A stretch of 64,000 bases of DNA from Lentimicrobium sp. GTDB taxonomy: Bacteria > Bacteroidota > Bacteroidia > Bacteroidales > Lentimicrobiaceae. The notes beneath the pieces were generated by a model. It had not been told where the DNA came from. It saw only the letters and a list, made by a program, of their open reading frames with translations, and did not search any database. Location of the stretch: positions 56,235-120,234 of the forward strand of contig JAMLHF010000005.1 of NCBI GenBank assembly GCA_023957275.1, in the 5' to 3' direction. The position numbers and the translations under genes were made by a program. The number at the start of each line of letters is the position of its first letter. Position 1 is the stretch's first letter. Shown here in pieces: positions 41,595 to 42,009 of the stretch.

Positions 41595-41602
41595 TATTTT
41601 TG
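41595..41602 (+). promoter_or_regulatory. -7 promoter box upstream of the tRNA-Gly repeat array
   Basis: TATTTTTG matches TAnnTTTG and ends 16 bases before the first repeat unit. A CTTTA lies where TTG is expected. Transcription from here would cover the four partial tRNA units and the complete tRNA. Confidence 0.55.
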
Positions 41603-41618
41603 CAATGAAATTCCAATC

Positions 41619-41903
41619 GCGGAAGTAGCTCAGTCGGTAGTCTCGTCACCAATGACGAGATCTCAAGCTGAGGGTATAATAATAACAATGCGGAAGTAGC
41701 TCAGTCGGTAGTCTCGTCACCAATGACGAGATCTCAAGCTGAGGGTATAAATAATAACAATGCGGAAGTAGCTCAGTCGGTAGTCTCGTCACCAGTGACG
41801 AGATCTCAAGCTGAGGGTATAATAATAACAATGCGGAAGTAGCTCAGTCGGTAGTCTCGTCACCAGTGACGAGATCTCAAGCTGAGGGTATAATAATAAC
41901 AAT
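41619..41903 (+). repeat. Tandem array of four tRNA-Gly-derived units with a hairpin in place of the anticodon arm
   Basis: Four head-to-tail units lie at 41619-41689, 41690-41761, 41762-41832 and 41833-41903 (71, 72, 71 and 71 bp). Each starts with tRNA positions 1-22 of the tRNA-Gly that follows. A 24-base insert then replaces positions 23-36, that is, the rest of the D arm, the 5' anticodon stem and the anticodon. The unit continues with tRNA positions 37-47 and an AT-rich 14-base spacer. The insert contains the palindrome TCTCGTCACCAATGACGAGA; units 3 and 4 have G in place of the second A of the loop, which extends the stem by one pair. No unit has a T arm or 3' acceptor strand, so none can be a working tRNA. 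Unit 2 has one extra A in the spacer. The function is unknown. Confidence 0.93.
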
Positions 41904-41976
41904 GCGGAAGTAGCTCAGTCGGTAGAGCATCAGCTTCCCAAGCTGAGGGTCGCGGGTTCGAATCCCGTTTTCCGCT
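41904..41976 (+). tRNA. tRNA-Gly (anticodon CCC)
   Basis: The 73-base gene folds as a complete cloverleaf: acceptor GCGGAAG/TTTCCGC with one G-T pair, D stem GCTC/GAGC, anticodon stem TCAGC/GCTGA with loop TTCCCAA, and T arm GCGGG-TTCGAAT-CCCGT. The anticodon CCC (41937-41939) reads GGG. The discriminator base is T, as usual for bacterial tRNA-Gly. The CCA end is not encoded and must be added by the nucleotidyltransferase. Directly upstream lie four truncated copies of its 5' part. Confidence 0.97.
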
Positions 41977-41977
41977 C

Positions 41978-42009
41978 AAAAAACGAGGTCAGATGGCTTC
42001 GTTTTTTTT
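41978..42009 (+). terminator. Terminator of the tRNA-Gly transcript
   Basis: AAAAAACGAGG pairs with CTTCGTTTTTT (one G-T pair, 8-base loop) and is followed by more T residues. It begins two bases after the tRNA discriminator base. An in-frame ATG at 41993 lies inside its loop. Confidence 0.85.

Follow-up and report, generated by a model that had tools for sequence, protein, structure and literature searches.

The locus described here raises the question of what a row of broken tRNA copies is, and how it came to lie directly in front of an intact tRNA gene. The window, meaning the whole 64-kb stretch analysed, is part of one contig (contig 91) of a 4.4-Mb Lentimicrobium genome in 145 contigs. 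We find that the array it carries is one case of a pattern that several Bacteroidota families show, frequently together with a GIY-YIG gene.

Anatomy of the array at tRNA-Gly(CCC)

ARAGORN and Rfam both call one tRNA at the locus, Gly(CCC), at 41904–41977 on the plus strand, and directly upstream of it lie four direct tandem units of 71, 72, 71 and 71 bp, which Tandem Repeats Finder reports as a single array of period 71 with 98% matches (period 143 is listed as well). Repeat finding and alignment to the tRNA place unit 1 at 41619–41689, unit 2, whose spacer has one additional A, at 41690–41761, unit 3 at 41762–41832 and unit 4 at 41833–41903, all on the plus strand. Each unit is composed of exact tRNA positions 1–22, 23 bases reading TCTCGTCACCA[A/G]TGACGAGATCT, exact tRNA positions 36–47 and an AT-rich spacer, and the T arm and 3′ acceptor strand are missing. 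The first-pass annotation had already given the four unit starts, the exact 1–22 and the missing 3′ parts correctly; its account of the insert holds for the anatomy and is wrong by one base at the boundary, which it had set at 24 inserted bases followed by tRNA 37–47.

The 23-base insert stands for tRNA positions 23–35 and consists of a perfect palindrome, TCTCGTCA-N4-TGACGAGA, plus TCT. A stem scan located the palindromes, each with a perfect 8-bp stem, at 41641–41660, 41712–41731, 41784–41803 and 41855–41874; owing to the three extra bases of the TCT, they are not flush with the breakpoints. The insert occupies the place of two stem strands, the 3′ one of the D stem and the 5′ one of the anticodon stem, so that a unit cannot fold as a tRNA, and the calculated fold of a single unit (−22.4 kcal/mol) is a hairpin enclosed by a short CTCAG/CTGAG stem. 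The window overall is not rich in palindromes, with 25 stems of at least 7 bp compared with 11–29 in ten block shuffles. Besides the tRNA, no known RNA family reaches an Rfam cut-off in the window; this includes group I ribozymes, which argues against a group I intron in the anticodon loop.

A putative −7 box of a promoter (TATTTTTG, 41595–41602, plus strand), which matches the Bacteroidota −7 motif TAnnTTTG, precedes unit 1, and a terminator-like inverted repeat with a T run, read directly in the sequence and similar in the same-genus genome G001, follows the tRNA at 41978–42009 on the plus strand. A TA-N2-TTTGC stretch stands in several relatives upstream of unit 1, or of the tRNA itself where units are absent, suggesting that the array is probably the leader of the tRNA transcript. 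For the tRNA itself, pairing is calculated at 0.81 without the array, 0.52 with it and 0.50 (sd 0.19) with a shuffled leader; given this lowered pairing in the model, the array might perhaps be non-neutral.

Integrative elements with tRNA attachment sites also place partial tRNA copies beside an intact tRNA. Here, in contrast, 5′ and inner parts of the tRNA are kept (1–22 and 36–47), a hairpin lies inside and no tRNA 3′ end is present, so that the first-pass annotation rightly set aside an attachment-site remnant; a reading of the open reading frames between 36 and 47.5 kb revealed no integrase. The rtT repeats at E. coli tyrT likewise lie in tandem next to a tRNA gene and include part of a tRNA, but theirs is a 3′ piece, which the units here lack, and the hairpin substitution is absent from rtT. 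Phage or plasmid origin was considered and rejected: a search with the 411-bp locus hit 148 plasmid records and 72 phage records, none at 80% cover, and the ten matches listed are tRNA-sized.

The locus and its hairpin in related genomes

The orthologous locus was compared in a same-genus set of 19 genomes, the window's own (G000) included, with 20 loci read in part; G005, G014 and G016 (another tRNA or unread there) and G002 (contig end) were left aside. Four upstream units in G000 compare with three in G001, two with other hairpins in G011, one each in G006, G017 and G004, one plus a scrap in G009 and one with a decayed hairpin in G012. Downstream copies are found in G008 (three, with two hairpins in each) and G011 (two, with a T-loop hairpin). 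No units were seen at the tRNA-Gly(CCC) locus in G003, G010, G015 and G018, the last with two such loci (the second is L031), and G007 and G013 may carry decayed units. Units that could have been missing from every relative are therefore present in several of them. An assembly artefact is unlikely, because same-genus genomes have three, two, one or no units here, some with other hairpins, and it was rejected on the further ground that separate genomes hold three units with variants of their own (G001, in two contigs). In the G004 unit, 5 of 22 tRNA bases are changed compared with 0 of 16 in the hairpin arms; arms that stay unchanged as the tRNA part decays hint at constraint on the hairpin. 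Of the origins weighed in the first-pass annotation, a palindromic insertion amplified later holds up as one option. An RNA with a role of its own at this locus finds little support, since copies number zero to four, units decay, hairpins are swapped (G011, G008) and four genomes are unit-free. As a separate observation, an open reading frame resembling by eye a tyrosine recombinase begins at about position 1780 of the G004 locus (L016), after tRNA-Gly(CCC), so that the tRNA is maybe also an attachment site there.

A search for the insert in Bacteroidota, which the first-pass annotation had proposed, found the hairpin at other loci and in other genomes. With at most one mismatch, the window palindrome occurs at 25 places in 12 of the 19 same-genus genomes, compared with none for a reversed control pattern, which speaks against a chance occurrence. 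By reading, 21 of the 25 sites lie within partial tRNA copies (11 Gly, 7 Asp and 3 Arg(CCT)), and the remaining four are in a 23S rRNA gene (G015), an apparent group II intron reverse transcriptase frame (G012), a palindrome (G018) and a tRNA-free stretch (G009). The 23S site (L041, G015:C78, 818–837) looks like an exchange of hairpin for hairpin, this place presumably carrying another helix in other bacteria; a pattern for variation of that helix matched only G015 itself among the 19 genomes. The G012 site (L040, G012:C65, near 1501) seems by eye to break the reverse transcriptase frame.

A stricter pattern run over GTDB genomes returned 43 stretches, 29 of them from Bacteroidota. Nineteen of these 29 are, by reading, partial copies of tRNA-Asp, Arg or Gly, eight of which were already in the same-genus set, and the 14 stretches from outside Bacteroidota (Lentzea and others) have no tRNA context. 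An order-level sample contained the hairpin in 4 of 295 genomes, two of them outside the genus, and two other genomes have different hairpins at the same place of tRNA-Asp copies. The hairpin of one genome, G455, was found nowhere else in that genome than at its two tRNA-Asp copies. In other Bacteroidota (L071, L076, L078, L080, L083 and L087) the window hairpin lies within or directly next to TCTCG/CGAGA repeats that form larger palindromes.

GIY-YIG genes and partial copies of the adjoining tRNA

Many of the partial tRNA-Asp copies adjoin a GIY-YIG gene of about 80–100 codons, and two of the linked nucleases match Pfam PF01541 with E values of 3e-16 and 8.3e-14. The same-genus set has 40 GIY-YIG matches in 14 of 19 genomes; the genes lie behind Asp, Val, Asn, Met, Pro and Arg tRNA genes, with hairpin-bearing partial copies of the same tRNA nearby, and for five YhbQ-like genes (L118, L119, L127, L128 and L134) the 1100 bp upstream contain no tRNA on the same strand. 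With a threshold of E ≤ 1e-12, the protein search of the phylum sample found matches in 59 of 395 genomes, and 4 of the 81 matches listed contain an inner stop; a tightly spelled tRNA-Asp pattern reached only 3 of the 395 genomes, probably because it demands a single spelling. From the 81 matches listed we took 49 Bacteroidota loci picked through the GIY-YIG gene (29 given by the protein search and 20 hand-picked from lower ranks, tandem cases first). A tRNA gene is present at 45 of the 49, and the GIY-YIG start lies at most 400 bp behind the tRNA at 30, by a pattern that misses some. Pooling all sets, we counted 104 distinct GIY-YIG proteins, 79 of them with a tRNA on the same strand no more than 1100 bp upstream; some of the loci had been entered through the hairpin. 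The Y, YxG, R, H and E columns are kept in 90–91 of 91 aligned nucleases, and judged by sequence the linked genes likely encode small DNA-cutting enzymes of the GIY-YIG homing type.

In the named isolate Perlabentimonas gracilis (L068), a GIY-YIG gene stands directly behind tRNA-Asp, with two hairpin copies of the tRNA upstream and one downstream. In a twin array from another family (L181), the intact tRNA-Gly(GCC) is preceded by four copies and followed by two GIY-YIG genes; the copies run tRNA 1–25, TCCCGA...TCGGGA, 34–49, one with an extra 40-base stretch and one with a base change, and their hairpin differs from that of the window. Two upstream tRNA-Asn copies in L132 (G011) have a similar plan. 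Two side observations concern tRNA calls: in L176 (G580), nine tRNA genes lie close by and three ARAGORN calls of Gly(GCC) are an apparent tRNA-Asp body with a changed anticodon, and the upstream copy in L106/L177 (G455), a hairpin-substituted tRNA-Asp, is called tRNA-Ala(CGC) by ARAGORN, which makes it an annotation trap.

Partial copies of the local tRNA, as same-strand pieces of at least 12 bases, occur in 38 of the 49 GIY-YIG loci, and pieces of at least 10 bases in 42; we rely on the former, since 10-base pieces can include chance matches. A palindrome abuts a piece of at least 10 bases in 30 of the 49. Among distinct pieces of at least 12 bases, the ratio of those in tRNA direction to those in the opposite one is 91:1 in the phylum set and 45:0 in the genus set (counted without three overlapping loci), in total 136:1, so the copies look like direct duplications. 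In a small control, 2 of 12 distinct other tRNA loci have such pieces.

We defined a replacement segment as whatever lies between two tRNA pieces, with no hairpin required, dropped beforehand pairs whose gap is close to that in the tRNA (ordinary diverged tRNA copies, mostly from L176) and kept only the nearest partner of each fragment. The phylum set yielded 52 segments in 32 of 49 loci, and 17 loci gave none. Compared with shuffles, 45 of the 52 reach p ≤ 0.05 as palindromes. In 33 the palindrome fills the gap exactly, flush at either breakpoint, and these 33 comprise 12 different 7-base arms; 37 of the 52 start with TC and end with GA. Breakpoints recur at 51/60 (seven times), 57/61 and 23/34 (four times each) and 50/59, 25/34 and 36/47 (three times each), which means that the part removed is a single stem strand (anticodon or T) or else the T loop. 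A few segments add bases without tRNA loss (56/57, 73/74), as do some palindromes at Arg loci (46/46, 62/63). The genus GIY-YIG loci gave 21 segments in 11 of 30 loci (none in 19), 16 palindromic and 4 flush, and the genus Gly locus gave 10 segments in 4 of 9 loci, all 10 palindromic and 1 flush. The window units belong to this class of palindrome-substituted partial tRNA copies, being on the same strand, with tRNA bases replaced and an intact tRNA adjoining. A GIY-YIG gene is frequent at loci of the class and not universal; a six-frame search of the window's own genome gave none at the window locus or elsewhere on contig 91, the matches being on contigs 68 and 114, adjoining tRNA-Asp and tRNA-Met.

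The nucleases tend to group by the adjoining tRNA in a quick tree of 91 proteins and 89 columns (13 of the 104 were left out as short or containing X, and some rows entered through the hairpin). Six tRNA labels require 11 changes on it compared with 33.2 for shuffled labels, and none of 200 shuffles was as low. The Gly(GCC) nucleases form one starred clade from a single family. The Asp label takes six changes; one starred clade, drawn from several families, has 22 rows, of which 15 carry the Asp label and 7 no label. The Asn label takes three, with a starred clade of seven from four families. Over all labelled rows, 18 changes by tRNA compare with 24 by family, a rough comparison because named records bear other family names. 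Of the tRNA labels, Asp and Asn do not form single clades, and 40 of the 88 tree branches are open.

Origin of the broken copies

On balance we lean towards reading the array as a tandem, non-coding tRNA-Gly(CCC) satellite of a wider Bacteroidota class, in which cuts by tRNA-specific GIY-YIG enzymes of the homing type and their repair would duplicate tRNA genes and palindrome-broken copies would persist and multiply. A small nuclease, its gene often just behind the matching tRNA gene, would cut that tRNA gene, and recombinational repair would duplicate the segment in the direct orientation observed. A copy in which a palindrome has displaced some of the tRNA bases, in most cases those of a single strand of the T or anticodon stem, would have neither a cut site nor a tRNA fold, so that broken copies could persist beside one retained intact tRNA. 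Unequal crossing-over or slippage would then raise and lower the number of repeats, differences in copy number being what is observed. The window array would be a satellite lacking a nuclease of its own, and the hairpin that it has in common with a tRNA-Asp locus suggests that a nuclease acted in trans or that a former occupant was lost; its units, probably carried in the leader of the tRNA transcript, may be without a job of their own.

This reading is supported by the differences in hairpin and copy number at the orthologous Gly(CCC) locus and by the same hairpin in partial Asp and Arg(CCT) copies, and also by the tRNA pieces and palindromic replacements at the GIY-YIG loci, the common direction of the copies, the twin array in L181, P. 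gracilis, and the grouping and conserved residues of the nucleases. Against it stand the Gly(CCC) loci themselves, at none of which a nuclease gene was seen (G004 has units and no GIY-YIG match), the palindromes away from tRNAs in the same genome and the Arg palindromes added without loss. The unchanged hairpin arms of G004, the loci that gave no replacement segment, the single flush segment among 10 at the Gly locus, the limits of the tree and the lowered calculated tRNA pairing count against it as well. Nor does the model explain why the replacement is palindromic, and the palindromes are its least explained part. A bolder form, which we offer tentatively with the balance against it, would make the system a new minimal mobile element: an isotype-specific GIY-YIG enzyme would damage a tRNA gene that the cell needs while passing on an undamaged copy, and the broken copies would be marked by a palindrome that the nuclease cannot cut, as a natural cleave-and-rescue system across Bacteroidota with the window array as a nuclease-free satellite.

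The palindromes could instead be mobile REP-like sequences of about 20 bp that insert into stem-loop DNA, with tRNA genes being hit only if a spare copy renders the damage harmless and with an incidental link to the nuclease. The pattern TCCCG-N8-CGGGA occurs at 33 places in the window's genome compared with 5 for a control, 4 of the 33 being in tRNA-Met copies, and none of 20 stretches read around other such sites has a tRNA, so the palindromes may be mobile in their own right. Several of the sites (L141–L151, G000) have by eye direct repeats of 3–5 bp at their edges, such as GCGG and CACGA, and the 23S rRNA and reverse transcriptase sites, as well as the Arg copies with palindromes and no base loss, point the same way. 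We nevertheless consider this origin unlikely, in view of the flush replacement of tRNA bases at recurrent places (33 of 52), the confinement of the G455 hairpin to two tRNA-Asp copies and the rarity of partial copies at other tRNA loci in the small control. Two further features of the genome were seen in passing: in L150 and L151 the TCCCG...CGGGA palindromes are nested in another palindrome, and L138 (G000:C71:44883-45509), a stretch with no tRNA, carries TCCCGATCGCTATCGGGA in each of four direct repeats spaced 203 bp apart.

It seems to us rather improbable that the hairpins serve as the recognised ends of a mini-element, built of a hairpin, a tRNA part, a nuclease gene and a second hairpin, that moves as a unit: hairpins do lie on both sides of tRNA and GIY-YIG gene in G455 and G015, and tandem units of 315, 348 and 372 bp occur in L189, L124 and L090, but upstream copies are often gene-free and no copy away from its cognate tRNA was shown with such flanking ends. 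That the units are a functional RNA, as a decoy for a tRNA-binding enzyme or a regulator of the tRNA-Gly transcript, is very doubtful, for although they lie between putative promoter and tRNA, fold at −22.4 kcal/mol, lower the calculated tRNA pairing and have arms that appear by eye more conserved than loops, they vary from zero to four copies with none in G003, G010, G015 and G018, lie upstream or downstream, exchange hairpins and lower the pairing no more than a shuffled leader does.

We found no description of the palindrome-substituted partial tRNA pattern in our searches of the open-access literature, in line with the first-pass statement that no system of this form was known. Short palindromes dispersed in bacterial genomes include REP elements with their RAYT transposases and the Rickettsia palindromic elements; those described here differ in being about 15–24 nt long, often a flush substitution inside a partial tRNA, and GIY-YIG-linked. 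Small spreading hairpins, some in or near tRNA and rRNA genes, are also present as repetitive hairpin-forming elements in sponge mitochondria and as double-hairpin elements in Allomyces. These are organellar, unlike the present ones, and we know of no nuclease-linked partial tRNA arrays among them.

The closest precedent that we found is, by analogy, the amplification by SegB. In phage T6, this GIY-YIG enzyme was shown to be needed for tandem amplification of the tRNA-segB unit, and repeats of this type involve microhomology between the tRNA and the 3′ end of the nuclease gene (PMC13096335). SegB and related free-standing phage GIY-YIG homing endonucleases resemble the present enzymes in lying beside tRNA genes, and SegB repeats are tandem units of tRNA and nuclease gene (PMC13096335). 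The system described here differs in being chromosomal in Bacteroidota, with nucleases grouped by tRNA, copies bearing palindrome substitutions and cutting that we infer.

The pattern joins three loose facts, namely partial tRNAs open to miscalling by tRNA finders, small GIY-YIG genes with no known role and short palindromes. If the nucleases drive duplication of the adjoining tRNA genes, this would be the bacterial equivalent of SegB amplification in phages, with essential genes as its target, and would offer a testable route by which tRNA gene families may grow, break and change anticodon.
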